NCBI GenBank assembly: GCA_014055465.1
Contig: WIAF01000015.1
Location: 1 to 64,000, forward strand
Direction of reading: 5' to 3'
Origin: Nitrospira sp. CR1.1
GTDB lineage: Bacteria; Nitrospirota; Nitrospiria; Nitrospirales; Nitrospiraceae
Length of the DNA stretch: 64,000 nt
Shown here one piece after another: positions 36,907 through 62,109 of the stretch. The translations under genes were made by a program, and so were the position numbers. The notes below the pieces were generated by a model. It was not told where the DNA came from, did not search any database, and saw only the letters and a list, made by a program, of their open reading frames with translations. Position 1 is the first letter of the stretch. Each line of letters opens with the position of its first letter.

Positions 36907-36926
36907 CCTCAGACCGGAGACCTAGG

Positions 36927-38213: not shown

Positions 38214-38236
38214 TTCGTAGTGTGAAAGGGGGCATG

Positions 38237-39019: not shown

Positions 39020-39057
39020 AGAAGTCGAGTGGGCGGATTCTGGAGGAGGCATGCGAC

Positions 39058-39789: not shown

Positions 39790-39813
39790 TGGAATGAACC
39801 CAGAGGAGCGAAT

Positions 39814-42327
39814 ATGTCAACGATCCTTGAGTGGAAGGTAAAGCAGCTGGTCGATCGGACAGCCATCAGTGACTGGCTGCCCTATGAGGCTTGGGATGAC
39901 ACCAATCAGGTCTATCGATTGGATGATGGGCGCATCGGTGTGGTGTTTTCTAGCAAGCCCCTACTGGGATTGTCGGAAGAGTCTATTCAGAAGCTGACGA
40001 ATCTCTTCGAGTCGGACCTGCCAATTGGAACCACGTTTCAATTCATGCTTCATGCGTCCCCCATTATCGAGCCATATCTGGACAATCACGTGATTCTGGC
40101 TCAACGAGGTCAGGCAGGGGAACGTTATGTAGCTGATGCGAGAAAGACCGCAGAGTTCTATCTGCATGCCAGAGATACACAACTGACGTCTAACCCACCT
40201 CTGCGCCCACGAGATTTCACGGTGTATGTATCCGTGGCGTTCCCAACGCAGGAAACGACGGCGCAAGGATGGGAAGACGAGCGGATTCATCAAGCGGTGT
40301 CGGGCATTGAGGGGCAATTGAACACGTTGGGATTATTGCCCGAGCGCGTAGGGCCGCTGCAATTATTGAGTCTCTTGCATGTGTTGCTCAATCCGGGCCA
40401 CAGCTGGGAGAGTCGGCCGCCGGCGTACAGCGACCAACTGCCGATACGAGATCAGGCGGTCCGTCTCGATACGAAGGCGACGCTTCGCACCAAGATGATT
40501 GAACTGGACGGAAAGTTTCTCAAGACGCTGACTGTTCAGTCCTGGCCTGTGCAGTGGCATGGCGGGAACAATCGCGAGTTGATTGGGAGCTTGATCCGGT
40601 TCACCGATCAAATTACCTGTCCATTTTTTCTGACGCTGAATGTGTTGAAATTTGACCAGGTCAAAGCGAAAGGCAAGTTACGAAAGAAGCACGTCATTAT
40701 TAATCAGCAGGCCAGTGGGTTTCTTCTGGGGCTTATTCCCTCCCTCAAGTTCAAATTGGATCATTTCAATGGCGTCCAAGCGCAACTTGAAAATGGCAGA
40801 CAGCTCATAGGGTCCTATTTCCAGGTCGTTCTGTATGGGGATACACCGCGACATGTGGAGGAGCAGACAGGCGCCCTTCGAGCTCTCTATCGGGCGAAGG
40901 ATATCAACTTGCAGGAAGATCACTTCATTGGATGGAAAATCCTTATGACGGGTCTACCCCTCGGACTACCGTCGGACGACAAAGCGCTCATTGATGGTCT
41001 GCGACGAATGAAGACTTATCATACCGAGGTCCCGGCGCATATTTGCCCCATTGTGGCTGACTGGAAGGGGGGCGGAGCTCCAGTGGTGCTACTGACGTCT
41101 CGTTCAGGTCAATTGATCACCATGGATGTGTTCGCCAATCAACAGACGAATTACAACATGGCGATCGCAGCGACATCGGGGGCGGGTAAATCGTTCTTTA
41201 TGAACAATTGGATCAAGAGCTACTTGGGTATTGGTGGCCAGGTGTGGGTCATCGATGCTGGCTTCAGCTACGTCAAACTTGTGGAGTTGCTCAAGGGGCA
41301 ATACATCCAGTACGGCGCAAACGCTCAACGCCTTTGTTTTAATCCGTTCAGCAAACTTGTGCATTGGGGGAGTAATGCCGGCGGGGTTGACGATCCAAGT
41401 GACCGAGCCGATGAACTGGCGACCCTCAAAGCGTTGCACGCGCAAATGGCGTCACCTTCGCGCCCTCTCTCCGATGTCGAGCTCTCGTTCATCGAAGAGG
41501 CGATCATGCGCGTACTCGAAGGAGAGGGATGTGAGGGATGTCCGGATTCGGTACACAAGGTGTTGAAGAGCATGACTGATCCTCGAGCCAGAGATCTCGC
41601 GCGTGTGCTGGCTTCCTATGCGAGGGGGGGTATGTATTCCCATCTCTTCAACGGGGCGAACAACGTCAATTTTGAAAATGACTTTGTGGTGCTTGAACTC
41701 GACGGATTGAATGAACAGAAGCAGTTACGGTCAGTCATTCTCCTGCAGATGCAGATGAATATCCAGGCAGTGATGTACAAAAAGGAGAACCGTGGCCGGC
41801 GGAAATTCGTCATTCTAGATGAGGCGTGGGATTTGTTGTCTCAGGGAGGCAATACCGCTGCGTTTTTTGAAACCGGCGCGCGCCGGGTCCGGAAGTCCGG
41901 TGGCTCAATGATCACCATCACGCAGGGCATCAACGACTACTACGACAAGATGCGGGATGTTGGGCGCTATTTGCTTGAGAATGCGGAATTTGTGGGACTG
42001 CTCAAGCAAAAGACCGAAAGCATCGCGGCGTTTAGGAACAATGGGCGCATTGTATTGTCGGAAATGGAATACCGACTCCTGTCATCCGTCACAAAGACCA
42101 CGGAGTACTCTGAGATTTTTATGATCACCCCATTTGGGAGAGGCATTTGCAGGCTAACCGTGCCGCGTGAGACACAGCTGTTGTTTACGACGAATCCGGA
42201 TGAACTGTCGATGATTGATCGCGTGAGAAAAGAAGGACCAAAGGAGCTCTCCATCGATGAAGCTATTCAATGTATTATCGCTGCTGAACGTGCTCAAGCG
42301 GGCGCCGACAATCCTCGACTGGCTTGA
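39814..42327 (+). CDS. traC: TraC, VirB4-type transfer ATPase
   Basis: This 837-residue ATPase has the TraC N-terminal domain (YRLDDGRIGVVFSSKPLLG), Walker A ATSGAGKSFF near residue 455, Walker B KFVILDEAWDLL near residue 665 and GGSMITITQGINDYY. TraC energises pilus assembly at the cytoplasmic face. GAGGAG lies 6 nt before ATG. Its last 71 bases overlap the S26 peptidase gene. Confidence 0.93.
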   Translation: MSTILEWKVKQLVDRTAISDWLPYEAWDDTNQVYRLDDGRIGVVFSSKPLLGLSEESIQKLTNLFESDLPIGTTFQFMLHASPIIEPYLDNHVILAQRGQAGERYVADARKTAEFYLHARDTQLTSNPPLRPRDFTVYVSVAFPTQETTAQGWEDERIHQAVSGIEGQLNTLGLLPERVGPLQLLSLLHVLLNPGHSWESRPPAYSDQLPIRDQAVRLDTKATLRTKMIELDGKFLKTLTVQSWPVQWHGGNNRELIGSLIRFTDQITCPFFLTLNVLKFDQVKAKGKLRKKHVIINQQASGFLLGLIPSLKFKLDHFNGVQAQLENGRQLIGSYFQVVLYGDTPRHVEEQTGALRALYRAKDINLQEDHFIGWKILMTGLPLGLPSDDKALIDGLRRMKTYHTEVPAHICPIVADWKGGGAPVVLLTSRSGQLITMDVFANQQTNYNMAIAATSGAGKSFFMNNWIKSYLGIGGQVWVIDAGFSYVKLVELLKGQYIQYGANAQRLCFNPFSKLVHWGSNAGGVDDPSDRADELATLKALHAQMASPSRPLSDVELSFIEEAIMRVLEGEGCEGCPDSVHKVLKSMTDPRARDLARVLASYARGGMYSHLFNGANNVNFENDFVVLELDGLNEQKQLRSVILLQMQMNIQAVMYKKENRGRRKFVILDEAWDLLSQGGNTAAFFETGARRVRKSGGSMITITQGINDYYDKMRDVGRYLLENAEFVGLLKQKTESIAAFRNNGRIVLSEMEYRLLSSVTKTTEYSEIFMITPFGRGICRLTVPRETQLLFTTNPDELSMIDRVRKEGPKELSIDEAIQCIIAAERAQAGADNPRLA

Positions 42328-42835
42328 TCGGCATCGCTGGACGCATGTGGGGTTGATGTTGTTCTGTGGTGCGATTGTTACTGCCGGCGTTATCGCCCCT
42401 TGGTATGAGGTCGCCGCTCGCATGAGCGGGAGTTGGCCGCACCATAACTTTTTCCTCATTCAAAAGGGGCAGCCCGTAGGACGAGGGGATCTCGTGGCGT
42501 TCATCATGCGGCGGGACTACGTGGAACGCGTGCAGCCAGGCCATTTACACCGTGACTATGCGGACGTGGGGAATCGGTGGATGAAACGAATTGTTGGAGT
42601 GCCGGGTGACCATATCGTGATCAAAGAGGACGAGGTCTATATCAACGGGCAATCCGTGGGTCGTGGATTTGGGATCGATCGTTACGGGCAACGGATCGAT
42701 TTAGCGTCACTTCCGGAAGTTATTCCGGAAGGGGAATACTATGTGGCGCTGCCACACCCGCGGTCGTTCGACTCTCGATACTATGGCCTAATTCGGAAGG
42801 CGGATATTCTCGGCACGGTGACACCACTCATCTAG
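42257..42835 (+). CDS. S26 signal-peptidase family protein (TraF/TrhF-type)
   Basis: This 192-residue membrane protein has one N-terminal helix, the catalytic Ser in MSGSWPHHNFFL and Lys in RWMKRIVGVPGD, and the closing boxes GDHIVIKEDEVYINGQ and GEYYVALPHPRSFDSRYYG. In IncP, R27 and SXT systems such peptidases mature the pilin. It is translated from inside the end of traC. A later start is possible, but none leaves the membrane helix intact. Confidence 0.85.
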   Translation: MKLFNVLSLLNVLKRAPTILDWLDRHRWTHVGLMLFCGAIVTAGVIAPWYEVAARMSGSWPHHNFFLIQKGQPVGRGDLVAFIMRRDYVERVQPGHLHRDYADVGNRWMKRIVGVPGDHIVIKEDEVYINGQSVGRGFGIDRYGQRIDLASLPEVIPEGEYYVALPHPRSFDSRYYGLIRKADILGTVTPLI

Positions 42836-42840
42836 CTAGG

Positions 42841-42850
42841 TCGGTAATAC
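42841..42850 (+). promoter_or_regulatory. TCGGTAATAC motif before trbC-traW
   Basis: Exact 10-base copy, 30 nt before the GTG start, in the 45-nt gap between the S26 peptidase gene and trbC-traW. It suggests a second internal promoter for traW, traU, traF, traH and traG. Confidence 0.6.
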
Positions 42851-42880
42851 TCCATACAGACATTCTGAAATGGAGGTACC

Positions 42881-44086
42881 GTGAACGTATCGAGCGGTAT
42901 TGTCTGTGTGGTAGCGGTCGCAGGGCTCTCCCTTCTGAGCATCGGGGCTTCTGTTTTCGCGGGAAACTCGCAATCAGCAGTACGTCCAAGTATCCCATCT
43001 CCTGAGGAGATGGCGCAGGACATCGCAAGGTACTCGCGCCAAGCGTTGCGGCATGGGCGTCCTCAGGAGTCACCAAAAGAAGTGCGCCGCGACGGCGTCT
43101 ACCTTCTACTCTCCTTCTCGTTACCGAACGACACCTTCAAAGACTACCTGCGAGAGGCGAAATTACTTGGCGCCAAGGTGCTCTTGCGTGGACTGGTGCA
43201 GGATTCGTTCAAGGTTACACAGGAGCGGATCAAGCATCTGTTCTTCACCGGGGATCATCCAGATGACTCACTGCTGGTTGGAATCGGGATTGATCCAGTC
43301 ATTTACCGGACGGTTGGTGCGGCAGAAGTTCCGGCCCTGGTGTTTGTGAAAGACGAGAAATTCCTAATAGCGAGCGGAGGAGCTTCGGTCGCGCATCTCC
43401 TGACGTTGTTGTCGAAGGAACAGGCCGGTGTGACGCCATGGATCGAATGGTTCGAGCGCCGGCACCGAGGGTTTCTTCAGGGGGGGCCGACGGAAGAAGC
43501 TCCGCCACAGGTTCCGACCATTGGGCGGAGTGTGAAGGTACAGGGCGACGCACGTGGAGCCGACATCGCGGAGCGGGACATGATCGATGTGATGAAGGAG
43601 CGGTTGGCGAAGGCGGACTGGCCGGATATTCAACGGCGGTCTGGCGACGCCCTCAAACGTCAGTTCGCAAAGGGCCCAGGGTTGGCCCTTCCGCATGCCG
43701 AAGAAGCGAGGGTCGTGCTCGTTGATCCAACGGTCGAGTACCCCGAGGATATTAAGGACCCCACGACGAACACGGTGTTGATCAAGTCCGGCACCAAAAT
43801 TAATCCCTTCGACAAGGTACGGTGGATTCGAACTCTGGTGTTTTTCGATGGCACCAGTTCCTCGCAGGTAGGTTGGGTGCAGCAGTATTTAAAAGAGCAT
43901 GATCCGAAGTTTGTGAAGCTGATCATCTCTGACGGCGACGTGCAGAAAGTGATGGAGCAACTTCATCAGCGGGTCTATTGGGCGAATCCTCTGCTTGTCA
44001 GTCGCATGGGGGTCGGTGCGGTACCCAGTATCGTCTCTCAGCTAGGTCGGCATCTGCGGGTGGAGGAGGTGGCGATTCATGAATAA
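42881..44086 (+). CDS. TrbC-TraW fusion protein
   Basis: GTG 42881 follows GGAGG by 4 nt. The 401-residue exported protein joins two F-system proteins. Residues about 60-180 match TrbC (YLLLSFSLPNDTFKDYLREA, LLRGLVQDSFKVTQERI, AEVPALVFV), and residues about 260-400 match TraW (RVVLVDPTVEYPEDIKD, TKINPFDKVRW, VFFDGTSSSQVGW, RVYWANPLLVSRMGVGAVPS). Both act in periplasmic pilus assembly with TraU. The fusion fixes their stoichiometry. I recall similar fusions in R27/SXT-type systems. Confidence 0.88.
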   Translation: MNVSSGIVCVVAVAGLSLLSIGASVFAGNSQSAVRPSIPSPEEMAQDIARYSRQALRHGRPQESPKEVRRDGVYLLLSFSLPNDTFKDYLREAKLLGAKVLLRGLVQDSFKVTQERIKHLFFTGDHPDDSLLVGIGIDPVIYRTVGAAEVPALVFVKDEKFLIASGGASVAHLLTLLSKEQAGVTPWIEWFERRHRGFLQGGPTEEAPPQVPTIGRSVKVQGDARGADIAERDMIDVMKERLAKADWPDIQRRSGDALKRQFAKGPGLALPHAEEARVVLVDPTVEYPEDIKDPTTNTVLIKSGTKINPFDKVRWIRTLVFFDGTSSSQVGWVQQYLKEHDPKFVKLIISDGDVQKVMEQLHQRVYWANPLLVSRMGVGAVPSIVSQLGRHLRVEEVAIHE

Positions 44087-45167
44087 GGCCTCGAAAAGAG
44101 GGATACAGCATATGCTGCTGCTGGTCTGCCTGAGTTGTGTCCTGATCAGCGTGGCGACTCTGTGGCCGTCGGGCTCCGCAGAGGCGGTGTGCACGACAGG
44201 GACCAATGTGTTGGCGAATAGTCTCGCTACGACGTGTTGGGAGTGCATGTTTCCCATTTCTCTCAGCGGGGTCACGGTGTTTAACCTGGGAGAAGATTTT
44301 ACCGAACCGGCCATCGGTCCTGGACACGCCCCGTTTCCGCCGCAGTTGTGTGGGTGTGTGTGTCTTGGTCCGATCTGCATTCCTGGGCTACCTCTGGGCA
44401 TCTGGGAGCCGAAGAATCTTGTCGAGGCGGTCCACGATCCACTGTGCTTTCCGACGCTCGGTGTGTCTTTGGCCGGGGGGTTCAGTTACATCGGGCGTGG
44501 CATGGCTACGACACAGATGGACTCCGAGCTAAATTATGCCTTTTTTCATGTGCATTATTTCGTTTTTCCCCTATGGGCCATCGTTGGTATCGGAATGGAC
44601 ATTCTGTGTCTGAATCCTACCGGGATTGCAGACGAAATCGATTTGGCCTATGCCTCCGAGATTGATCCCTTGTGGGACGACGACCTGATTTCACTCATTC
44701 TCTTTCCGGAGGCATTGGTCCTGGCCAATCCGGTGGCACTCGCGGCCTGCGCGGCCGATTCGGTAGCTGCAGCAGTCGGTTTCCCAATTGATCCGCTGTT
44801 CTGGTGCGCCGGGAGCTTTGGATTCATGTATCCGCCGACTGGGCATGTCTCAGGAGCGGATGGGGACCTCAAACCTGCCGCGCTGTCGATGACGCGATTG
44901 TTAGCGAAACTGGCCCGCGCGGGAACAGAGTTTTGGACCTCCGCTAATGGTCCGCTGCTGTGTGAGGACATCCCGACCGCACTCATTGTGAAAAGCCAGT
45001 ACAAGTTTCAATTACTCTGGCCGATTCCAAACACAGGACTCCCTCCCCCGTGCTGTCAGCCTCTAGGACGGACACTCATGATGTGGGGGCTCGGGAAAAT
45101 CGTGCCAGCCGTTGGAGAGGATTTTGTGTGGCTGCTATGGAAACGACAAAACTGCTGCATGCTCTAG
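44079..45167 (+). CDS. traU: TraU, pilus and DNA transfer protein
   Basis: This 362-residue Cys-rich secreted protein shows the TraU pattern: NSLATTCWECMFPISLSGV, LCGCVCLGPICIPGLPLG, NLVEAVHDPLCFP and AYASEIDPLWDDD. It starts 8 bp before the end of trbC-traW and overlaps the following traF. Its many Cys pairs explain the need for the DsbC-like and TraF thioredoxin-fold proteins. Confidence 0.92.
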   Translation: MNKASKRGIQHMLLLVCLSCVLISVATLWPSGSAEAVCTTGTNVLANSLATTCWECMFPISLSGVTVFNLGEDFTEPAIGPGHAPFPPQLCGCVCLGPICIPGLPLGIWEPKNLVEAVHDPLCFPTLGVSLAGGFSYIGRGMATTQMDSELNYAFFHVHYFVFPLWAIVGIGMDILCLNPTGIADEIDLAYASEIDPLWDDDLISLILFPEALVLANPVALAACAADSVAAAVGFPIDPLFWCAGSFGFMYPPTGHVSGADGDLKPAALSMTRLLAKLARAGTEFWTSANGPLLCEDIPTALIVKSQYKFQLLWPIPNTGLPPPCCQPLGRTLMMWGLGKIVPAVGEDFVWLLWKRQNCCML

Positions 45168-46039
45168 CTTGGTATTGCGTGACCTTCTGCTCGGTGGGAG
45201 GGGTGAGTAGCGCTGTGCTGGCCGCTGAGCCTCCTGGGTCTCAGACTTTTATCGACCATCCCAGGCAGGGGTGGTTCTCTTATCAGGACCCGTCAGCCGA
45301 GGCAGAGGAAGACGGAGAAGAGAATCCTGCCCCCGTTACGATGGATAGCTTACCACCAGAGGCTTGGCTGGACCCGTCGAAGTACCGAACTCTGTTTAAG
45401 GGGCTTTCGGTCGAAGGCGTGAAGTTGAACGCCCTCCCGATGACGGTATTGCGTGAACTGGTGTCGGCCAAGAAGGAACGCGCATTGGATCATCCTTCGG
45501 TCGAGAATGTAACGACTTACATCAAAGTGCAAAAGGAAGCGTATGACCGCTCGCAACGCTTCACCGATGCATGGCAGATCGCCATGTACACGGACCCCAA
45601 ACTCGACTATGCATCGCAACACCCCACGTCCACCTATGGGCATAGCGTCGAAGCCGAGATCAAGCGGAACACCGAAGAGCAGCTTCTGGCGGGCACAGCC
45701 GACCGGGTCGGACTGTTCTTCTTCTTCACCTCGACCTGCCCGTTTTGTCAAGAACAGTCCAAGGTATTGAAGGTCTTTGCCGATACCTACGGACTGACGG
45801 TGAAACCTGTGTCGCTGGACGGGGTGGGATTGCCGGAGTACCCGCAGCCCGTCACTAACAATGGCATGGCGGAGAATGTGGGCGTGCATATGGTGCCCAT
45901 GATTTATCTGGCAATTCCTGAGGAGAACTTCCTAAAGCCGCTCGGAGCCGGTCTCATGACGAATGCGGATCTACGGGAGCGCTTGCTGGTGTTGTTGCGT
46001 AACCGAGGATTGTTGGGCGAGCGACGGTCTCAGGGATAA
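45137..46039 (+). CDS. traF: TraF, thioredoxin-fold pilus assembly protein
   Basis: ATG 45137 (METTKLLHALAW) begins a signal peptide; the frame opens earlier but inside traU. The 300-residue product has a helical TraF region (ENVTTYIKVQKEAYDRSQRF) and a thioredoxin domain with FFFTSTCPFCQEQS and cis-Pro HMVPMIYLA. F TraF lacks the active Cys pair, while this one has CPFC like TrbB, so it may combine both activities. Confidence 0.9.
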   Translation: METTKLLHALAWYCVTFCSVGGVSSAVLAAEPPGSQTFIDHPRQGWFSYQDPSAEAEEDGEENPAPVTMDSLPPEAWLDPSKYRTLFKGLSVEGVKLNALPMTVLRELVSAKKERALDHPSVENVTTYIKVQKEAYDRSQRFTDAWQIAMYTDPKLDYASQHPTSTYGHSVEAEIKRNTEEQLLAGTADRVGLFFFFTSTCPFCQEQSKVLKVFADTYGLTVKPVSLDGVGLPEYPQPVTNNGMAENVGVHMVPMIYLAIPEENFLKPLGAGLMTNADLRERLLVLLRNRGLLGERRSQG

Positions 46040-46049
46040 AGGACACACG

Positions 46050-47384
46050 ATGCGAATCAAACTGATTCTGGTGGGAGTGTGTATGTGGGCAGTACTGGTC
46101 TGGCCTCCCCTGGTACAGGCGCAGTCAATGAATGATGCCCTTACGAACATGTTCACGTCGTGGGGTGTCGGGATCACGAGTCCTCCAGGTGCCTACGAAA
46201 GTCAAAGTCGAGGCTACTTCAGCGGCGGCGGGGTCTCGGTCCGTTTGTGGCAGGACCCGATGCGGTTGTGGTCGATTGCCCCGCCGCGATTGAGCGTGGG
46301 CTGCCAGGGCATCGACGTTTACCTGGGCTCGTTTTCCTACGGCAAACTAGATCGGTACGTCCAATTGCTGCAGCAAATCGGGACCGGTGCCGTCTTGGGG
46401 TACGCTTTCCAGCTGGCGATGAAAGCCATTTGTGAAGACTGCGCGGACGTGCTCAACAAGATTGAAGCGGCTGCGAGAGCGCTCAATGCTGCGGGACGGA
46501 TCCAACCCTGTCAAACAGGGATTGAATTGGGCAAAGCGCTAGCCGGGAACGAAGCCTCCAAACAAAAGCTCGCGAGTCGATTCGGCGATGCCTGGCAGAA
46601 GATGAAGGAAGCGGGCGGCGCCATTGGAGACGTGTTTGAAGATCGGGATACCGTCAAGAACCAGTCGAATGCGGATGCGGCCTCAGCATTGAAAGGCACG
46701 GAATACGATGTCACTGGCAATCTGGTGTGGGATGTCCTGACGCAGGCTGGCCTGGATCAGAATCTGATCGTCATGGTGATGTCGGTCACCGGGACCGTTA
46801 TAGTCGGTAACGATGGCGATGTTCAAACCCGCGATCCGACGATGACCTTCGAACAGCTGGTCGATAGTCATCTGGGCGACGTGGTGAAAGTGTTTAATTG
46901 TGGGGGCGACTCGGAATGTTTGAGCCCCACGATTACTGACGCGACCGATATCGAAGGATTCGAGAGTCGCGTGTATACGTCCATGAGTAACCTGATCGAA
47001 GACCTCTACTCCGGCTCAGCTATCAGCGCGACAGATCAGCAAATCATCAACATGACCCCGGTCCCCATTCTGACCATGCTCGCCGATTATGGGCGTCCAC
47101 GGGATGTCGGCAATCAGATTGCGCGATTGTCTTCAGAAGTGGTCGCTGCGGACATGGGGTATCAATGGGTGAAGTGGGCGGCCACCGAAACGTCCAGGAA
47201 CGTTAGCTATATCCAAAAGGTCAAACCCGAGTGGCCAGGCAATCTGCAAGACTTTCAGGGGCGGCTGCATCAGATCCTAAGGGGGGCTAGTGAGAGTCTC
47301 GCGAAGCGGCAACGTATGGTGAATAACATCAACCAGCTTATGCAGTTGACGAAGACTCAGGGCGAAATGCGATCGCTGCGGTAG
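46050..47384 (+). CDS. traH: TraH, pilus assembly protein
   Basis: ATG 46050 follows AAAGGA. The 444-residue secreted protein matches TraH: MNDALTNMFTSWG, YESQSRGYFSGGGVSVRLWQD, PPRLSVGCQGIDVYLGSFSY, CEDCADVLNKIEAAA and NTLIEDLY-type C-terminal segments. It works with TraF, TraW and TraU at the outer membrane. Length is close to F TraH (458). Confidence 0.93.
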   Translation: MRIKLILVGVCMWAVLVWPPLVQAQSMNDALTNMFTSWGVGITSPPGAYESQSRGYFSGGGVSVRLWQDPMRLWSIAPPRLSVGCQGIDVYLGSFSYGKLDRYVQLLQQIGTGAVLGYAFQLAMKAICEDCADVLNKIEAAARALNAAGRIQPCQTGIELGKALAGNEASKQKLASRFGDAWQKMKEAGGAIGDVFEDRDTVKNQSNADAASALKGTEYDVTGNLVWDVLTQAGLDQNLIVMVMSVTGTVIVGNDGDVQTRDPTMTFEQLVDSHLGDVVKVFNCGGDSECLSPTITDATDIEGFESRVYTSMSNLIEDLYSGSAISATDQQIINMTPVPILTMLADYGRPRDVGNQIARLSSEVVAADMGYQWVKWAATETSRNVSYIQKVKPEWPGNLQDFQGRLHQILRGASESLAKRQRMVNNINQLMQLTKTQGEMRSLR

Positions 47385-47428
47385 TCGGAGTAAGTCTGTC
47401 TGCGATGTGAGGGAGAGGATAGCGCATC

Positions 47429-50400
47429 ATGTGGACGATCTATACGTTTGGCAACGGCGATGTGCTGACGCAGATTCTACTGGGCATCCGGATCATGATG
47501 ACCACCGGACGCTTCGAAAGCTTGATGGAGCTCGCACTTCTTGTCTTCGCGATGTTCGGACTCGTGTATTTTGTGTTCAATCGGCGCTTCTTGGTCCCGC
47601 TGGTCGTCGGGGCATTTTTCATTCTCTTTGTCAGTGTCCGAATCACGGTCGACGTGTCCGTGGAAGACCAAGTCAATCCCGATGTGCCGGATCAAATTGT
47701 GAACAGTGTGCCGCTGGCGATCGCGTTACCGGCATACCTCTCGGGGCAAGTAGGGTACTACACGACTCAGCTTGTCGAAGCGTCGTTTCCGATGCCCGTG
47801 CAATATACCCAGGGACAAGCGTCATTCAATCGCCCGCTATTCGATCTGCAAAAAGTCCTCAATGCGAGATTGCAAGACTCGGATCTGGCCCGCAATACCG
47901 ATTCATATTTTATGATGTGTGTATTTCGGGAGGTGGGCCTGCTCCAAAAGAACCTCGGTACGCTGATGAATTCTCCGAATCTGCTCAATGATATCGGGGC
48001 TACGAATAACGCACTCACGGCACTTGGATATACAGGTGGGACGTTGGAAGCGGCCCCGCGGGTGTGTCCCGACTTCTATAGTTCTCTCATCCTTCCTGCG
48101 TATACCACGGGGCAGCCTGACTACGAAGGGGCGATGCGGCATTTGCGGACACAGTTGCAGCTTGATCCGGCCACCGGCGATGAGGAAGGGCTCACTGAGG
48201 ACATCCGGGCGAATCTCTTGTTATCCGTCGGGCAATCGGCCCGAGACATGATTAATAATGTGCTGCTCATCCATGCGTGGAAAAACGCCGAATCCGCCGA
48301 TGCCAAACGGCGCGCGGCGACTGCGGACACTGTGCTTCTGCAGCAGCAGGCGATCCAAAAGGACTTAAAGTTCCAAAGCTACTCGAAGTCCTATGTCGCT
48401 CAAAAGGTCGTACCGCTATTACGGACCATTGTGGAAGGGGTTGTGTACATCATGACCCCGTTCCTTCTAGTGCTTGCCATTTCGCCTGGGATGTCACGGT
48501 TGATGGGCACCTATTGGCGCTTGTTCATGTGGCTCCAGACCTGGTCGCCTCTGTATGCCGTGCTGAATTTTGTCATGTTTTGGGAAGCGCGAAGCCGGCT
48601 CGGCGCGATCCTGAGCTCAAACGGGGTTGGCCAATCCGTCAACTATGCAACGTTAGACAGAATCAATGAACATGTCGCCATGCTGAATTCCACAGCCGCA
48701 GATTATGTGTGGCTCGTGCCAGCGATCGGTTTCGGTCTGATGTGGGGCGGAAGCCAGGTGTTGGGATCGATCCTGGCAGGATCGCGGACTGCGGAAACCG
48801 TCGCTGGGCAAGTGGGAGGACAGTTCTCACGTGGGCTTGGTGCCAATTTGGAGGAAGGCCCGTCCTATCGACACGAACAGCGTGGGGCCCAGTTCGGCGA
48901 GATGATCGGCCATGACGTCGAACCACAGATGACTGTGCCGACTGGTCAGGGTGGGTTTCGTGTGGATAGTCAATCCGGCACGAGTGAGATCCACGACTCC
49001 CAGGGCGGCATCACCAGTATTGGCGCGAACGGCATTCAGAACTACAAGGGGCCAGAAGGACAGTATTCAATGGATTCAAAGGGGCATCTGCTGAGTGGGG
49101 TGTTCCGTCACAAGATGTTTGATCCACAGTCCGGGAAGCAGGTCGATGCACAAACCTCGGTGTTTGGTTCGATGGTGGAGCATCGCTTCGATACGATGGG
49201 GGAGGATGGCTCCAGGAAGAGCGTGCTTGTGCAGGAAAATCAGGATACCGGAGAATTAGTGGCGCGCACGGAACAATCCGTTCGGAAAGGCCTGTCCGAG
49301 ACGCGTACGATTGCTGAAGATGGTAGTCAAAGTTTTGCACGATCGGGGAATGTGCCGTTGTTTTTGGAAGTCGCGGGCGAGACACGTCCCGATGCCGGAT
49401 TTGTCCAGATGATGGGTGAGCGTGGGCCAGGCGAGCGGGTAGACACCCTCACACAGTCGACATTTCAGAGCACGATGGGTGCGAAACAATCGTATACCGG
49501 GCGACTGGTAGAACGCGATGGACAGTTTCATTTTCTGGCGACCGAGGGCGGGGCCGTCCGAGGATTTGACAACAAGGATACGGAGGCCGGCGTCCACAGG
49601 GAATCGTTCGTTTCCCCTGACGGTTCCAATTATTTTGTGGAGACTGGGCAAACGGAACAGATGGTCTTAGGGAAAGATGGGGTGACTCGGCCGATGGAGG
49701 GATATGTCAGGGCGTTTGGGTCAGTCGATCGCTCGGACCCGGTGCATCCGCGAGACATCTATTCCAGTTACAGTCTCACCAGTGATGAGGGTGGTCACAC
49801 GCACACAGTGACAGGAACATTGGGCACCGATGCATCAGGACGACAGTTCTTGGTGGAAGCCACGGAACATTTTGAGTCAGGCACGAGCGGTGTTGCCCAC
49901 GACACCCACACGGTCGGTTCCTACACCCTGAGCGGCACGTTCACGGCTCTGAGTCATGGGGAAGCCAATCAACCAGGAGTGCCGACAGCCTTCTTTGGCT
50001 CTGCCATCGACAATAGCAAGCCAGGTTCTCCGGCGTTTCAAGCCAACGCGTTGTTGTACGACGGCCAGGTAAGCTTCTTTGACGGCCGGGAGGGAGGTAC
50101 CAAGAGTATTTCCGGGGAACGTAATCTAGTGGATGGCACCCATTTGTCTGGGCAGTTCACCCAGCTAAATGTGATGGGACAAGATGGACACCAGGTTGAG
50201 ATGTTTCATGGGTATGCGCAGCAACCGGGGGCTCCGGCCCGCGATGTCACAGGGCTGATTGATAACGGTAGTCTCGTCTCGTTTAAAGGAGCCTCAGGAA
50301 ACGAGTTCCGAGATGTTATTGAACGAACTGATTCTGGAGATCTTCAATCTATCGGCGCTCAGGAGACATATAGTGCTCCTGGAGGAACTCACTCCCTATC

Positions 50401-51895
50401 AAATTTTCAGGGAGTAACCGTTAATCCTCAGGGGGACGCCTTCAAAAGATCATCCACAAACCTGGACGGGGTGAGTGTGTATAGCGATCAGATGAGGGGA
50501 TCGCGCCAAATGACCGTCGAGTTCGAGCAGTCCCTGCGTGGGTACAACAACGAGGTACAGTCGATCGATAAAGAGTCAGGCTGGCGTCGGATCAATGACG
50601 GGCATCGCGATATGGATGTGTACGCCAATCTCTACTACGGCCCGACCAGTAGTGAGACTGGCGGACGCAAGCTACTGGGCGGGACGATTACCAATGTGAC
50701 CGACAACACCTATTCCACTTTTATGAAAGATGGAGAAGGCAACGAGGTGTGGGGAATTGCCAGGTCACTGGAGGATCCAAACAGCGGGGCTATGAGCGGC
50801 TCTATTGATCAGACGGTGAAGGTCGTGGCGGCGAAAAACGGAGCGATAGACACACAAGTCCTTGGTCCTATGAAGGATGATGGCGGCCAGCGCGAAGTCT
50901 TGTATCATTCGGTGTTGGGCGGATTGGACTCACAGTACTATAACAATGAGCGTAAATCCGGCATTTTCACCGTGCCTGATCCTATGCATCCCGGGCAGAC
51001 CAAGGAGCTACAGGGGACGTTCTACTATAGTCCTCAGTCTGGCCAGTTAATTGCGTCAGAAGTAACGGACTTGCAAACAGGGAAAATCGGCCAGTACCGT
51101 ACTGATGCACAAGGGCAAGAACACTTCCAGGTAGTGGAGTATTCACAGTCGCCCGATGGGGCGAGCGTGATTGCAAATACGAAGGAGCTATCGAAGAATG
51201 AGTATGCGGCACATGGATTTGCGGTTAACGATGTACTTGACGGTAGCGGGAATGTGCTGAGTTCGTCCGGTCACAAAGGCTCCGATTTTCATGACTTCAA
51301 TCGTGTGCAATTTCATCATGACAGTGGGGCGAATCTAACGATTACACAAATGGCGTTTGCGGCCAAAGGCACCGATATTACAAACCCTACGCAGACGGAC
51401 GAGGCGATTGCTTATGGGCTTGAATTTGGTCGGATCGGAATGGATGGGGCTTCGCGATATTTGATCCTCAAAGGACGAATGGGGAAATTTGGTGGGGGAG
51501 GAGTTGGAGGAACACCGGTTCAGCCAGGTGGTGGACCTGTGCCGAATGGCCCTGGTGGAGGTGGGGGACCGAGCGGTCTTTTGGACTCGCATCAAAATAT
51601 GGGCGCCTGGTGGAAAGAATATTCCGGAGTGATGGATAATGCTATCTCGTTTGCCCGCAGTTCTGTCGAACATTTGGAAAAGACCGGGCGTGCACAAAGC
51701 ATGTCTCCCGAAGAATTACAGAACTTTGCTGCCAATGCCGCTTATAATGCGGTGCGCACATCGGCCCTTGGCATGATGGGAGAAGAAGCGTCGAGTGCGT
51801 TTGGGACTATGCCGAGGTGGCAGGAAGGCCAAGAGTCGCTGTTGAAGATTTCAAAACCGTCTTCACAAGGTGTGAATACCGGCAGCAACAAGTAA
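47429..51895 (+). CDS. traG: TraG-like mating-pair stabilisation protein with very long repeat-rich C-terminus
   Basis: The 1488-residue protein starts with the TraG N-terminal domain (YTFGNGDVLTQILLGIRIMM, several membrane helices, VYIMTPFLLVLAISPGMSR, LQTWSPLYAVLNF). From about residue 480 the rest is a periplasmic-type region built of repeated beta modules (SGTFTAL, SGQFTQL, VTGTLGT, KELQGTFYY) with frequent Gly and Asp, then a Gly/Pro linker and a helical end. F TraG is 938 residues; here the extra length is in the repeats. TraG acts in pilus assembly, mating-pair stability and entry exclusion. Confidence 0.9.
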   Translation: MWTIYTFGNGDVLTQILLGIRIMMTTGRFESLMELALLVFAMFGLVYFVFNRRFLVPLVVGAFFILFVSVRITVDVSVEDQVNPDVPDQIVNSVPLAIALPAYLSGQVGYYTTQLVEASFPMPVQYTQGQASFNRPLFDLQKVLNARLQDSDLARNTDSYFMMCVFREVGLLQKNLGTLMNSPNLLNDIGATNNALTALGYTGGTLEAAPRVCPDFYSSLILPAYTTGQPDYEGAMRHLRTQLQLDPATGDEEGLTEDIRANLLLSVGQSARDMINNVLLIHAWKNAESADAKRRAATADTVLLQQQAIQKDLKFQSYSKSYVAQKVVPLLRTIVEGVVYIMTPFLLVLAISPGMSRLMGTYWRLFMWLQTWSPLYAVLNFVMFWEARSRLGAILSSNGVGQSVNYATLDRINEHVAMLNSTAADYVWLVPAIGFGLMWGGSQVLGSILAGSRTAETVAGQVGGQFSRGLGANLEEGPSYRHEQRGAQFGEMIGHDVEPQMTVPTGQGGFRVDSQSGTSEIHDSQGGITSIGANGIQNYKGPEGQYSMDSKGHLLSGVFRHKMFDPQSGKQVDAQTSVFGSMVEHRFDTMGEDGSRKSVLVQENQDTGELVARTEQSVRKGLSETRTIAEDGSQSFARSGNVPLFLEVAGETRPDAGFVQMMGERGPGERVDTLTQSTFQSTMGAKQSYTGRLVERDGQFHFLATEGGAVRGFDNKDTEAGVHRESFVSPDGSNYFVETGQTEQMVLGKDGVTRPMEGYVRAFGSVDRSDPVHPRDIYSSYSLTSDEGGHTHTVTGTLGTDASGRQFLVEATEHFESGTSGVAHDTHTVGSYTLSGTFTALSHGEANQPGVPTAFFGSAIDNSKPGSPAFQANALLYDGQVSFFDGREGGTKSISGERNLVDGTHLSGQFTQLNVMGQDGHQVEMFHGYAQQPGAPARDVTGLIDNGSLVSFKGASGNEFRDVIERTDSGDLQSIGAQETYSAPGGTHSLSNFQGVTVNPQGDAFKRSSTNLDGVSVYSDQMRGSRQMTVEFEQSLRGYNNEVQSIDKESGWRRINDGHRDMDVYANLYYGPTSSETGGRKLLGGTITNVTDNTYSTFMKDGEGNEVWGIARSLEDPNSGAMSGSIDQTVKVVAAKNGAIDTQVLGPMKDDGGQREVLYHSVLGGLDSQYYNNERKSGIFTVPDPMHPGQTKELQGTFYYSPQSGQLIASEVTDLQTGKIGQYRTDAQGQEHFQVVEYSQSPDGASVIANTKELSKNEYAAHGFAVNDVLDGSGNVLSSSGHKGSDFHDFNRVQFHHDSGANLTITQMAFAAKGTDITNPTQTDEAIAYGLEFGRIGMDGASRYLILKGRMGKFGGGGVGGTPVQPGGGPVPNGPGGGGGPSGLLDSHQNMGAWWKEYSGVMDNAISFARSSVEHLEKTGRAQSMSPEELQNFAANAAYNAVRTSALGMMGEEASSAFGTMPRWQEGQESLLKISKPSSQGVNTGSNK

Positions 51896-53458: not shown

Positions 53459-54753
53459 GGTGTGACGAACCATCCCCGTGTGAGAGTGGGACCATGGGGC
53501 AGGACGAGATCGGTGACAACTGCCGCCAGAGTTTCGGCCGTTGGCGCGACGGCGTTGATCGGACATTCGAGGACAAACTGAGCCAGCACTTGTGCGGTCT
53601 CAACAGAGACAAGAGTCGTGGTGAGCAGCAGCCCCTGATCTGAAGCAGAGGCGATGTCGATGGATACGAGCAGATTTGCTCCGGTGCCCATGCCGGCTGA
53701 CGGTTGTCGCTCATCATTAAAGAACGGAGCGAGTTGCCGGACCTGGACAGGAACTAGTTTCCGATACCGTTCGTTTCGGATGACCAGCGGAAGGCCGCGC
53801 TCCTTCATACGGCCAATAAGCCTGTCTACTATCAACTGGGACTGTTCGTGTCCCCAGTCATTGTTGACCGCCAGCCTGAGGCGAGGCTGCTTCGGCCAGC
53901 GATCTTGGGGGAGCACTGCGAGATCGTGCTGCAGCATAGCGGTGAGTACGTGCCCGTCGATCGGCAACTGTGTGGTCGGGCCGGGGTTGCCGACAGTTGG
54001 ACTGTAGGAAATCTCGACGGTCCCGTCAGGGACGTCGGCAGGATTCACGCCCTGTTCCCGTAAAGCCATTGCAAGCCATCGAAGGCGGATGTGCGTCCCT
54101 TGAGAATCCTGACTCACAGGGACGGCAATCCCAATGCGGTCCCGTCCATCGGCGGCAAAAGTGAGCCGAAGGTCACCGTCCACAATTATCCGCGTAACAG
54201 TCTGAACCTGGGGATCGAGGTCATCAGCGATCCGAGTTCGGGTATCGGCGCGGCCAGGCACGTCATATCCGGCGGCGGCCAGGCAGTATTGCCATGGTGA
54301 ACTCCATCCCGGCTGGTTTGGTGTTCCCATGGAAAAGAGGGTATTCAACAGGAGATTTGGGGCACAGAGTAGTCCCCCTCCCACCATCGTGACAAGATTG
54401 AGCCGACGTTCATAGGTATATCCTCCCCAGACTTCTTCTCGCCTGATCCGATTCTTCTCCTCAATGGTTTGGGTGACTCTCACCGTCCATCCCAGGCCAT
54501 CACTGTGGGGTGATAGTGCCAATCGAGGATGTTCTACAGCCGTCGTTGAGCTGGTTTCACGCGATTCTTTGAAGTCCTGCAAAGTGGTCGGCGTGAAGAC
54601 GGGGGCACAAGATACCAAGGTGACGAGCACAAGGAGGACCACGCTGATCGTCCAACTAGACCACTGCCAAGCAAGGTACGCAAGAGAGCGGATCTTCTCT
54701 CTAGATGAGGATAGAAGCGGAGTGGGAGTGATCCGGTAATACCTGTTGGGCAT
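53455..54753 (-). CDS. lipoprotein of unknown function, paralogue of the next gene
   Basis: This 432-residue lipoprotein has a long N-terminal region before the hydrophobic segment and lipobox LVSC. It contains LALSPHSDGLGWTVRVTQTI, a hydrophobic GGGLLCAPNLLLNTLF segment, DLRLTFAADGRDRIGIAVPV and a conserved-looking C-terminal domain (LRLAVNNDWGHEQSQLIVDR, NLLVSIDIASASDQGLLLTT). The C-terminal part may resemble outer-membrane assembly lipoproteins that bind partner proteins, but I cannot name it. It is divergent from the NusA-like gene. Confidence 0.65.
   Translation of the reverse strand: MPNRYYRITPTPLLSSSREKIRSLAYLAWQWSSWTISVVLLVLVTLVSCAPVFTPTTLQDFKESRETSSTTAVEHPRLALSPHSDGLGWTVRVTQTIEEKNRIRREEVWGGYTYERRLNLVTMVGGGLLCAPNLLLNTLFSMGTPNQPGWSSPWQYCLAAAGYDVPGRADTRTRIADDLDPQVQTVTRIIVDGDLRLTFAADGRDRIGIAVPVSQDSQGTHIRLRWLAMALREQGVNPADVPDGTVEISYSPTVGNPGPTTQLPIDGHVLTAMLQHDLAVLPQDRWPKQPRLRLAVNNDWGHEQSQLIVDRLIGRMKERGLPLVIRNERYRKLVPVQVRQLAPFFNDERQPSAGMGTGANLLVSIDIASASDQGLLLTTTLVSVETAQVLAQFVLECPINAVAPTAETLAAVVTDLVLPHGPTLTRGWFVTP
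54733..54742 (+). promoter_or_regulatory. CCGGTAATAC motif before the NusA-like gene
   Basis: The core GGTAATAC is exact. It lies 93 nt before the NusA-like start and inside the first codons of the divergent lipoprotein gene. It is the only core copy located inside a coding region, but it still points towards a downstream operon. Confidence 0.5.
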
Positions 54754-54835
54754 AGTTGTGAGACCGAGTCTCGAACTACACGCATGTGGCAGGTGCGTAT
54801 ACGGGTCGAAAAACTATAGCACAGGCGAGTGACGA

Positions 54836-55489
54836 ATGGTGCAGGTGGGAGACTTAGTAATGGCTCGGGTCATTCGGATGGATCCGGGACACAGCGCATA
54901 TCTGCTGTGGGCGGATTCCATCGGGAGGTATGCCATCTTGCCGCATCAGTATGCCGACCGTCAGTACAAGGTACGCGACTCATTGATGGGAGCTGTGTAC
55001 AAGGTCGGTGACGAGTTTCCGATGCTGTCGCAGCGATCGATGCACTACTTCCGGCGTATTGCGGAGTTAGTGCTGGCTCCGGTGTTGGCGGACGACCACG
55101 TGCACATCAAGCGTGTGGCGACGGCTCAAGCCGCGTCGTTTGTGAAGATTGCGGTCGAGACTTATCGCACGGGGGAAGATGTCATCGCGACCTGCAAGCC
55201 TCTGTTGTACGAGTTCCGGACCTACACATCCCGCACGATCGCACTCGTGAAGTATCGCATGGAGGTGGAAGCCTACATTCGCGAGGCATTAGCGCCGGCC
55301 CCGAGCCGGTCAGTGCGACGAGTGGACGTGTATCGGGAAGAACATCAGGCGCGAGTCATTGTTGAACGGGGCACGATCGCACAGTTTCTTGGTCGCAAGG
55401 GGATGAATGCTGCGGTGGCCAGCAAATTGACCGGGTATGGACTGGTGCTCGTGGACGAAGCGGATCTGGGAAAGACAGCTCGGGCGTAA
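54836..55489 (+). CDS. NusA-core-like protein (S1-KH1-KH2) without the polymerase-binding domain
   Basis: The 217-residue protein follows NusA from its S1 domain onward: S1 at 1-65 (VGDLVMARVIRMDPG, AILPHQY, DSLMGAVYKV), then LSQRSMHYFRRIAEL, HVHIKRVA, SFVKIAVET, VEAYIREALAPAP, and KH2 with FLGRKGMNAAVASKLTGY. The N-terminal domain that binds RNA polymerase and any C-terminal acidic repeats are missing. KH1 has lost its GxxG (CKPLLYEF), while KH2 keeps GRKG (186-189). It should bind RNA and could act as an element-specific elongation or antitermination factor. It heads the last transfer operon. Confidence 0.8.
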   Translation: MVQVGDLVMARVIRMDPGHSAYLLWADSIGRYAILPHQYADRQYKVRDSLMGAVYKVGDEFPMLSQRSMHYFRRIAELVLAPVLADDHVHIKRVATAQAASFVKIAVETYRTGEDVIATCKPLLYEFRTYTSRTIALVKYRMEVEAYIREALAPAPSRSVRRVDVYREEHQARVIVERGTIAQFLGRKGMNAAVASKLTGYGLVLVDEADLGKTARA

Positions 55490-55504: not shown

Positions 55505-56149
55505 ATGGCTCATGGGGTGGACGCAGAGCGACAACTGGGGATGGTACGGCGCGAGGGCCAGTCTCTTCGGAGCGCGTCTCCGACGAATGGACGAAGGCCC
55601 GATCGGGCGGAGGAGAACAAGCGGCGGCTGGAAGATCCGAATTCGGTGCTCCTTTTACCACAAACAAAGGCGGGGATGGCCTGTGTCTCCATGCTGTACA
55701 TGTTTGACAAGGTAATTCATCGTCTTCGGCGGGCAGCAGGATCTCATCTCTCCATTGAGCAAGTGCGCAACGAGTTGGCTCGTGTGGAGCAATGGGTGGC
55801 GCGGGCAAAGGTGATCTTGCGAGAGCTTGGAGTGGGGGAGTTCGAGTTGCTCCCTCAAGACCCATATCCCGACCTAAAAGAACGGAGCGTGAAGGCGGCG
55901 TGGCGCAATGCGCGTGTCATTACGCCCCGCGTCGGAGACACGGTGAGACTGGTGCCGGTGATTCGCGCCCTAGATAACGCGCTCAATAGCATTCGTCTCC
56001 GAGCGGAAGATCTCACTCCGTATGTGAAACATTTTCAGGCCGTCGATGAGCTTGTAGTGGCCTTGCACGATGTCATCGGGCATGTCGCTCGCGTGACGGT
56101 GACAGAGTATGAGCCGCGGGGCGCGGTGAAAGCATTTTTGAACCAATAG
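55505..56149 (+). CDS. hypothetical protein after the NusA-like gene
   Basis: GAGGAGGTGAGGC precedes ATG. The 214-residue protein has a disordered Arg-rich N-terminus and a helical remainder (MLYMFDKVIHRLRRAAGSHL, LSIEQVRNELARVEQW, PVIRALDNALNSIRLRAED). No recognised domain, signal peptide or membrane helix. Sixteen bases separate it from the NusA-like gene, so they are co-transcribed and may be partners. Confidence 0.6.
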   Translation: MAHGVDAERQLGMVRREGQSLRSASPTNGRRPDRAEENKRRLEDPNSVLLLPQTKAGMACVSMLYMFDKVIHRLRRAAGSHLSIEQVRNELARVEQWVARAKVILRELGVGEFELLPQDPYPDLKERSVKAAWRNARVITPRVGDTVRLVPVIRALDNALNSIRLRAEDLTPYVKHFQAVDELVVALHDVIGHVARVTVTEYEPRGAVKAFLNQ

Positions 56150-59635: not shown

Positions 59636-60234
59636 GACGGGGGTATGGTGGGCCTCTGGGTGCATTCTCCAGACCGAAAAGTCGCCGTTCGACGTGGTTC
59701 TGTCTTGCGGTGGTATGTCTCGGTGTCTTGCCGGACAGTGTTGCGGCGGAGATGCCTCCGGACCGGTTTTGGTATGTGAACCACAGTTGTGTTGTGGCGG
59801 CGGCGAATCGCTACGCGGTGACCGTGCAAATATTGGAAGCCATTATTCTAGTGGAGAGTGAAGGGGATCCGCATGCGGTGAATGTGAATCGGGACGGCAA
59901 GGGGGATCGGCGAGGACCACTTTCTTTCAAGCAAGCGACGGATCTGGTTGCTGAACTGTGGAAGGCGGGGGCGAATTTTGATGTGGGGATTGCACAGATC
60001 AACAGCGTACACATGCGCCAGTACAAAATTGATCCAGTCCATTTTCTCGATCCTTGTATCAATATCCAATGGGCGGCCTTTGTCTTGCGGCAGAAGATCA
60101 ACGAGTACCAAGAAACGTGGACAGCCGTAGGCCGTTACAACGGCAGTCGCAACATCGCGGGCTACAGCTGGAAGGTGTATCGGGCATTGGAGCGCCTCGC
60201 AGGCATCAGACGAGCCCGTGGCTTGCTGCGATGA
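59611..60234 (+). CDS. VirB1-like lytic transglycosylase
   Basis: This 207-residue secreted protein overlaps the end of traN by 25 bp. It has a signal-like hydrophobic segment ending SVAA and an SLT domain with the catalytic Glu in AIILVESEGDP (E82), then FDVGIAQINSVHM and WAAFVLRQ, ending YNGSRNIAGYSWKVYRAL. Such enzymes cut peptidoglycan to let the channel through. F TraP/Orf169-type enzymes play this role. Confidence 0.9.
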   Translation: MHLHRHLLRRGYGGPLGAFSRPKSRRSTWFCLAVVCLGVLPDSVAAEMPPDRFWYVNHSCVVAAANRYAVTVQILEAIILVESEGDPHAVNVNRDGKGDRRGPLSFKQATDLVAELWKAGANFDVGIAQINSVHMRQYKIDPVHFLDPCINIQWAAFVLRQKINEYQETWTAVGRYNGSRNIAGYSWKVYRALERLAGIRRARGLLR

Positions 60235-60275
60235 GTCCGCGGGGTGAGGTGGAGCGGCTTTCAAAAGGAGGAACT

Positions 60276-60728
60276 GTGAGCGACAGACAAACAGAGGCGT
60301 GCTCCACTGAGAATGCGATACATGCACGGTGGGCGTTTGATGTCACGCCAGGCCGTGAACGACACGTGGCCTTGCAGCTCCAGGAGTTGGGGTGCACGGA
60401 CGTGGAACGTCCGACAAAGGGCTATGTGATCGCGCACTGTGATCCAACGGCCGTTCCCGTGATCAAGCGGCTGTCTGGAGTGGTGCGAGCGCTTCCTTTG
60501 CTGGATACCGACCTCTTCGAGAACCTTAGCAATGTTGAACCACTCCTGGCCAAGGTGGCGGACGTGGTGCAGGTGAGTTCGGGCCCATATGCGCAGATGA
60601 CGGGCATCGTCCGAGCCTTGGACGGGGAGGATGTGCTGGTGGATGTGAGTTTGATGGGGCGGGTGGTACGAGTCCGGGCTAAAGCGACGCATGTGAGCGT
60701 GATGCCGTTACCGGAACCGTGGAGGTGA
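60276..60728 (+). CDS. NusG/RfaH-like transcription factor
   Basis: GTG 60276 is set by AGGAGG 4 nt upstream; 150 residues. An NGN-like domain covers about 17-74 (ARWAFDVTPGRERHVALQLQ, VIAHCDPTAVPVIKRLSGVV), and a KOW domain covers about 97-140 (VVQVSSGPYAQMTGIVRAL, VLVDVSLMGRVVRVR). NusG paralogues such as RfaH and ActX bind paused polymerase and prevent termination in long operons. It follows traN and the transglycosylase, and 3'-adjacent is the HD protein with GGAGGTGAC at its junction. It probably serves this element's tra operons. Confidence 0.8.
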   Translation: MSDRQTEACSTENAIHARWAFDVTPGRERHVALQLQELGCTDVERPTKGYVIAHCDPTAVPVIKRLSGVVRALPLLDTDLFENLSNVEPLLAKVADVVQVSSGPYAQMTGIVRALDGEDVLVDVSLMGRVVRVRAKATHVSVMPLPEPWR

Positions 60729-60729
60729 C

Positions 60730-62109
60730 ATGCTCGGGAGATTGTGGGCAGCTTGGCGGGGCGAGTCTGCGAGAGTTCATACCGGAGAAGCAACTTCCCT
60801 TGTGGTGCCGAGCCTGATCGAAATCACCCTAGAGGATCTGGCTAAAGACGTGTGGCTTCCGCTCAATTTGGACTTCATTCAACAAACTGGGGAGCTGGTC
60901 GAGGAAGCTGAGCCCGAGGGCAGTCCAGTAGAGTATGCACCGCCTGATCCTGAGGTGGCCGTCGCTCCTGCGGCCCTGACATATCCCAGTGCATCAACTT
61001 CTGCGGAGGGCCCGTCCTCTGCCCAGCCGGTGCTGCCTCCTCAGGGAGGCGCACAGGCCGCCACACTCGATCCCGCCACCTCGACACGCCCGGTGTCGTC
61101 TGGCCGGTCGTCCGCACTTATTCGGGATTTCATCATGCCCTATCAACCGGTAATTGAGAGCCAGCGCGCACTGGAGCCGCTGCTCACGGTGGTGAAAATT
61201 CTCGAGGAATATGGGGACTGTCCGTCGATCGTGACGGCCGGTATCGAACGGGACGAAGAATGTACGGACCTCTATTCCATTCGCGATACGCTCGCGAAAA
61301 TCACGCTGCGAGACCATACGTATCGGGTCACGGAGTTAGCGTTGGCGTTGCTCAAGCAGACCTACCGGGATGGAGATCTTATGATCCCGAAGGTACTGGT
61401 GGCGACACTAGGACATGATCTGGGTAAGATTCCGCGCTTTCGTGCGACTGCCGCCCATGCGATGGGGGATCATCCGGTTGTCAGCGCGATTAAGCTCCAA
61501 GAGTGCTTTGCCGGCACGTCCATCCCATGGTTCAGTGAGGTGTTGGATGCCATCAAGGGCCATCATCGGATCGGGAAGGATCGGCTGGGCGTGATTCTTC
61601 GGCAAGCCGATGGGCAGGCACGCGTGAAGGAAATGATCCTCAGCACGCAGGAGATGCAGGAGAAGCCGTTAGACAGTTGGTGTGCGGGACCAGAAGTCTT
61701 GGCGATCGTGGCGCCTCGGATCAATCGGCCACTCAAAGGAAGCAAGTGGGCGGCGTTTTCGCTGAAAGGGGTGGTGTATGTGACACCGGATGCCATTCTG
61801 GAGGCCGCCAAAGAGTTGGCACGGCAGAAGAAGGTCGTCGAAATGGGACTCATTCGATCGACCGATCGCGAGGATACGCTGCGGCGACTGGTGAAAATTC
61901 TAGGTGCGGCGGATCTCTTGGCTATGGAGATTGGCGAGCATTTTTACGGCCGGCCGTTCGACATCTTCACAAAGAAAGCGGGCATCAAACAGCGTGGCTA
62001 TTTTGTGCCGGTCAAACTTGAAGCGTTTCAGATCGCCGAATCGGAACTCGAGTCTCGCAAGGTGGCGTTTATGCAGTTGGTGACCGAATTCCAGCTCGGT
62101 CGAGGATAG
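60730..62109 (+). CDS. HD-domain protein, candidate MOBH-type relaxase-related protein
   Basis: GGAGG lies 5 nt before ATG, overlapping the end of the NusG-like gene. The 459-residue protein has a disordered Ala/Pro-rich N-terminal region and an HD metal-dependent phosphohydrolase domain: H196 (LRDHTYRV), H229-D230 (LGHDLGK), H248 (GDHPVVS) and H278-H279 (KGHHR). A C-terminal domain resembles the TraI C-terminal part of MOBH relaxases (WAAFSLKGVVYVTPDAILEA, IKQRGYFVPVKLEAF). No other relaxase is seen in the window, so it may be the relaxase. Signalling HD hydrolase is the alternative. Confidence 0.6.
   Translation: MLGRLWAAWRGESARVHTGEATSLVVPSLIEITLEDLAKDVWLPLNLDFIQQTGELVEEAEPEGSPVEYAPPDPEVAVAPAALTYPSASTSAEGPSSAQPVLPPQGGAQAATLDPATSTRPVSSGRSSALIRDFIMPYQPVIESQRALEPLLTVVKILEEYGDCPSIVTAGIERDEECTDLYSIRDTLAKITLRDHTYRVTELALALLKQTYRDGDLMIPKVLVATLGHDLGKIPRFRATAAHAMGDHPVVSAIKLQECFAGTSIPWFSEVLDAIKGHHRIGKDRLGVILRQADGQARVKEMILSTQEMQEKPLDSWCAGPEVLAIVAPRINRPLKGSKWAAFSLKGVVYVTPDAILEAAKELARQKKVVEMGLIRSTDREDTLRRLVKILGAADLLAMEIGEHFYGRPFDIFTKKAGIKQRGYFVPVKLEAFQIAESELESRKVAFMQLVTEFQLGRG

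Follow-up and report, generated by a model that had tools for sequence, protein, structure and literature searches.

Transcript elongation in bacteria is modulated by NusA, a protein whose two functional halves have been assigned distinct tasks. The N-terminal domain (NTD) binds RNA polymerase (RNAP) at the beta flap tip, and is both necessary and sufficient for pause enhancement, while the S1-KH1-KH2 region, or SKK, constitutes the RNA-binding unit (PMC4642336, PMC7171158). Archaeal NusA and NusA2, which are host proteins, display a NusA-type KH pair in the absence of an NTD. In addition, long operons can be served by supplementary copies of a general elongation factor, as is the case for ActX, RfaH and LoaP (PMC7819879, PMC12691694); ActX is encoded in plasmid pilus operons (PMC7819879), and LoaP brings about antitermination via the antagonism of NusA (PMC12691694). 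Mobile elements are already known to carry NusG paralogues, as well as small antiterminators. ActX, RfaH and LoaP are all paralogues of NusG, whereas the gene that is the subject of this work, carried by an element that also harbors a NusG-like gene, encodes a NusA. Word searches of the open-access literature yielded no conjugative element with a NusA paralogue.

The gene lies in a 64,000-nucleotide stretch of DNA from Nitrospira sp. CR1.1 (here called the window), which forms part of an 88.6-kb contig (C15). It opens with an ATG at position 54836 and closes with a stop codon at 55489 on the forward strand, and encodes a protein of 217 residues that corresponds to a NusA core devoid of the domain through which NusA binds polymerase and enhances pausing. 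The complete NusA of the host, of which there is a single copy, is encoded on a different contig (C1) by an intact open frame of 390 codons.

Architecture of a stand-alone NusA core

The 217-residue protein matches the NCBIfam model of bacterial NusA, TIGR01953, over model positions 173-333 with an E value of 7e-13, at a score of 48.3 bits that does not reach the curated cut-off of 253.4 bits. As a single sequence it recognizes NusA chains in the PDB (E 1e-6), and a profile built from 16 family members extends this match to residues 5-213 (NusA, 4mtn, E 1.4e-15). The AlphaFold2 model, with a mean pLDDT of 92.7, consists of an S1 barrel of five strands, two linker helices, KH1 and KH2; in a Foldseek search with this model the top 17 matches were all NusA, with best TM scores of 0.82-0.84, and VIA-align superposed 206 residues onto the S1-KH1-KH2 region of Mycobacterium tuberculosis NusA (residues 108-329) with a Z score of 23.0. 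Given these profile, Foldseek and VIA-align matches, the likeness to NusA is far beyond chance. The first-pass annotation had read the gene as NusA from S1 through KH2, and both the profile search and the structure prediction that it proposed as checks return NusA. A Pfam match to MiaE_2 (E 6.6e-4, under the cut-off of that family) was set aside, since fold and profiles both indicate NusA.

The S1 domain occupies residues 1-68 (54836-55039, forward strand), and VIA matches to S1 domains cover approximately residues 1-75. KH1 (residues 89-151; 55100-55288) carries a five-residue deletion at the point of the alignment where NusA has its GxxG loop, and in the model an unbroken helix, formed by residues 116-129, runs through this site. 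The deletion is common to every short member of the family described below, one of which (L022) has a partial filler there. KH2 (residues 160-216; 55313-55483) retains its loop in the form of FLGRKGMN at residues 184-191; both glycines are present in 20 of 22 distinct sequences, L009 and L021 having GKAA and GPKA instead, and the first glycine of the loop and the asparagine after it are invariant across the alignment. The loss of GxxG from KH1 and its retention in KH2, both pointed out in the initial reading of the gene, are therefore features of the family as well. The protein has in common with the SKK region of bacterial NusA the order of its domains, their fold and the GxxG of KH2, and differs from it in having no RNAP-binding NTD, in the deletion within KH1, and in being borne by a conjugative element beside the NusA of its host.

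The absence of the NTD, also noted in the first-pass annotation, was confirmed in two ways. The open frame ahead of the domain measures 1-32 codons in all short members versus at least 132 in full-length NusA; and a profile search of the whole genome for NusA_N (PF08529) found no match on contig C15 and a single one elsewhere, within the nusA gene of the chromosome (contig C1). The location of the latter also excludes the case, named in the first-pass annotation as one that would count against its reading, of a complete NusA encoded near the core. The resemblance to the archaeal proteins is partial: 2cxc aligns over 124 residues (Z 13.3), only from residue 68 of the core onward, and has no S1 barrel, while NusA2 aligns over 138-145 residues with Z scores of 9-10.

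A conserved family within F-type conjugative elements

A search at the protein level, covering 396 genomes of the phylum, identified 16 homologues beyond that of the window, with frames of 214-249 codons and identities of 29-93%; for nearly all of them, a second match in the same genome is a NusA. Further searches raised the collection to 22 distinct short homologues, 28-99% identical, which score 237-330 bits against the family profile versus 49-86 bits for full-length NusA. A tree built from 21 short sequences and 23 full-length ones separates the short ones from the rest by a branch supported at 100/100; the root is a midpoint root only, and long branches render the inner order uncertain. 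The dN/dS ratio between close short members is 0.06-0.16, and the gene is therefore under purifying selection. In light of the supported clade and of the low dN/dS, the core represents a conserved family and not a decayed fragment.

Wider alignments of the family hold no stretch conserved enough for scans of large collections, and searches beyond Nitrospirota were narrow ones. A scan of genome contigs with narrow patterns returned only Nitrospira or Nitrospirales records and contigs of metagenome-assembled genomes filed under Nitrosospira and Mesorhizobium; the core on the Mesorhizobium contig (L064) is 99% identical to that of the window, and reflects either misbinning or transfer across phyla. 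In viral contigs, the patterns that were used for them detected no relative. Of the plasmid and phage records recovered by tblastn, the five that were examined were rejected as short cores: four have NusA frames with at least 139 residues preceding the domain, and in the other one the gene is placed between rimP and infB. The NusA in two records filed as phages, MT835665 and OQ572408 (L037 and L038), looks like bacterial contamination; in L037, nusA is flanked by rimP-like and infB-like ORFs. It is also of note that a 636-kb phage genome (LR756504.1, L036) encodes a 423-residue NusA at 5557-6828, with approximately 149 residues before S1 and thus room for an NTD, and that a Paenibacillus plasmid (NZ_CP145893.1, L039) carries at 5566-6639 a NusA gene, annotated as 'transcription termination factor NusA', between genes for an AAA ATPase and topoisomerase 3.

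The description of the core as element-borne, made at first from the window, is borne out by its surroundings both here and in its relatives. Upstream, on the same strand, lies a series of F-type transfer genes (36133-51895), named by likeness and gene order as traK, traB, dsbC, traV, traC, lepB/traF, traW, traU, traF, traH and a traG-like gene; several of these have homologues arranged alike in related loci. Homologues of traG, traH, traF or traU are found upstream of the core in those loci that have a sufficiently long flank. Among related loci with readable sequence throughout the region, one order recurs with few departures: NusA core, a gene encoding 214 residues in the window, (coiled coil), YbjQ-like, traN-like, SLT, NusG-like, HD and two small genes. 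Even in the deep relatives L057 (33% identity) and L058 (29%), core and neighbour sit among homologues of traB, traC, traE and traK or of SLT, dsbC, lepB, traF and traC. A search for the same gene in other conjugative elements, also suggested at the outset, thus found it among tra genes.

The HD-domain protein (60730-62109, forward strand; PF01966, E 2.2e-7) belongs to the same cluster and serves as a marker of the element. Among 175 genomes of the bacterial family, 17 have the core (E < 1e-80); all of these also have the HD gene, which occurs elsewhere only in G420, as a fragment at a contig end. TraC is present in 16 genomes, 14 of which are among the 17 with the core; the two others are G311, where TraC is split, and G455, a genome that is 72% complete. 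Fisher tests on these genome counts, uncorrected for relatedness, give p values of 1e-22 for core and HD and 5e-16 for core and TraC. In three genomes (G251, G052, G412) the homologues lie inside single-contig chromosomes, which suggests that these elements are integrated.

Putative partner genes and the upstream region

The gene that follows the core (55505-56149, forward strand) encodes a protein of 214 residues, a homologue of which directly follows the core in all 18 loci with a readable downstream side. The gap between the two genes, some values of which are a few bases off owing to an inexact position of the NusA stop, is mostly within about 35 nt, with a Shine-Dalgarno-like sequence; wider gaps occur in L056 (approximately 50 nt) and L051 (as much as about 110 nt), while in L057 the frames overlap. 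The 16 members of the neighbour family gave no convincing match to Pfam, and a search of plasmids for the 214-residue protein gave none. Its predicted structure (pLDDT 85.4, with the first 30 residues poorly predicted) contains a strand and two long helices, this unit occurring twice. Foldseek returned nothing significant for this model; in a second look with VIA, the top match was AcaB, with a Z score of 10.8 over 144 residues against 8.3 for the next row, a range about which the tool warns for helical proteins.

AcaB has been described as a transfer activator of IncC plasmids (PMC11493245) and, like the 214-residue protein, is borne by conjugative elements, in its case plasmids of the MOBH/MPF_F type. 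On pMS6198A, where the identity of AcaB was checked, no adjoining gene is annotated as NusA-like, unlike the arrangement observed here. The AcaB family PF08900 matched none of the 16 neighbour-family members, and an hhalign comparison of the neighbour with AcaB was not significant (probability 5%, P 0.007, control pairs 0.12-0.65). The likeness to AcaB in the predicted fold is thus suggestive only, and is regarded as a lead, not as family membership. The ICE_PFL4669 family (TIGR03761) was also considered and rejected, having matched one member of the neighbour family at E 0.095 and nothing in the genome from which the window comes.

A second potential partner is encoded at 60234-60728 (forward strand), where a short NGN is combined with a KOW. 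The family profile of this NusG-like protein matches NusG with an E value of 5e-9, with a KOW of the NusG type, and hhalign relates the family to the NusG of the host (P 2.8e-6), mainly through the KOW; within the NGN, only short stretches could be aligned. Of 18 loci, 15 have the gene in the cluster of the core; it was not detected in the stretches read for L056, L057 and L058, of which the last two are the deepest relatives. A third, weak NusG-like gene is present in the host genome (G000:C6:55845-56300, L062), in addition to nusG and the copy of the element. The first-pass annotation had suggested that the core works with the 214-residue neighbour or with the NusG-like protein; gene context agrees with such a partnership, and it is from gene context that the suggestion draws its support.

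The presumed leader or promoter region of the core (54743-54835, forward strand) contains an inverted repeat, TAGTTGTGAGACCGAGTCTCGAACTA, at 54753-54778, which is identical in close relatives and could be an operator or an RNA hairpin. The leader presents no folding excess over shuffled sequences (z 0.45), no nut- or ops-like leader element was found, and no Rfam family matched in the window. Intrinsic terminators are not in excess in the transfer region (16 found versus 16.5 expected), and downstream of it 5 were found versus 9.6 expected.

A separate observation concerns the heptamer GTAATAC, of which the window contains 11 copies versus 1.98 expected, a number attained by none of 100 shuffles; its density is 1.69 per 10 kb on contig C15 versus 0.44 in the sampled host chromosome. 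Seven copies (15684+, 15600-, 31874+, 42844+, 54736+, 4807- and 5013+) are located approximately 20-110 nt upstream of starts of element genes, and the heptamer also precedes the core in several distant elements; it is possibly a shared promoter or operator motif.

Possible roles of the NusA core in transfer-gene expression

The combination of a missing NTD and a preserved SKK leads to the expectation that the core binds RNA and does not enhance pausing (PMC4642336, PMC7171158). The role that we consider the most likely, and put forward tentatively, is that of an element-encoded RNA-binding cofactor for the transcription of transfer genes. The core would bind the nascent RNA of transfer operons through S1 and KH2; lacking an NTD, it would not be expected to enhance pausing alone, and any action on transcription would require a partner to bring it to the elongation complex, most likely the NusG-like protein and/or the AcaB-like neighbour. 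Once there, it could act as an element-specific antitermination or anti-pausing cofactor for long transfer operons, and the precedents of ActX and LoaP make such a role in elongation plausible. Beyond this literature, the model is favored by the identity and fold of NusA, the separate clade and its selection, the co-occurrence with HD and TraC, the neighbour in 18 of 18 loci, the NusG-like gene in 15 of 18 and the fold match to AcaB. Against it stand the searches for an RNA target, a nut- or ops-like leader or an excess of terminators, which found none, the three loci in which the NusG-like gene went undetected, and the fact that the resemblance to AcaB is one of fold only.

The same architecture could serve a protein that never meets RNAP: a post-transcriptional regulator, whose S1-KH core would bind transfer-operon mRNA, perhaps its own leader, and control translation or decay with the neighbour as co-regulator. 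The absence of the polymerase-binding domain from every member, the retention of the KH2 loop, the fact that the core opens its run of genes and is closely followed by the neighbour, and the existence in archaea of a NusA that is a KH-KH protein without an NTD all suit this explanation; the NusG-like gene in most clusters points instead to elongation, and the leader shows no excess of folding. We consider it somewhat unlikely, though the strongest of the alternatives.

It is more improbable that the core is a decoy, which would lower NusA-dependent pausing and termination by competing for the nascent RNA or the Nus partners of host NusA, without forming a specific complex. The protein does possess the RNA-binding half of NusA and not the half required for pause enhancement (PMC4642336), and antagonism of NusA is a demonstrated route to antitermination (PMC12691694), but the RNA loop of KH1, which a protein that simply competes for RNA should have retained, is lost from all members, and the constancy with which the neighbour accompanies the core points to a specific complex. 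Least probable is a structural, protein-binding subunit co-opted to bind the 214-residue neighbour, in which RNA binding would no longer be important, as could be proposed from the invariant pairing, the loss of GxxG from every KH1 and the change of the second KH2 glycine in two members, and against which the loop of KH2, with its invariant glycine and asparagine, is otherwise maintained.

If the elongation-cofactor model is extended to all three proteins, a polymerase-domain-free NusA, an AcaB-like DNA-binding protein and a NusG paralogue would form an element-specific elongation complex on the transfer operons of Nitrospirota conjugative elements, that is, a dedicated antitermination machine with its own NusA-type RNA-binding module; as a whole, this picture is speculative, and rather doubtful in its entirety. 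In more general terms, the element may use the core to control the reading of its transfer genes. The gene of the core can also serve to mark a family of conjugative elements in Nitrospira and its relatives. Finally, a natural S1-KH1-KH2 protein that has no polymerase-binding domain, is maintained by selection and is linked to transfer genes makes it possible to test directly how the RNA-binding half of NusA acts in isolation, and whether other partners can re-target this half.
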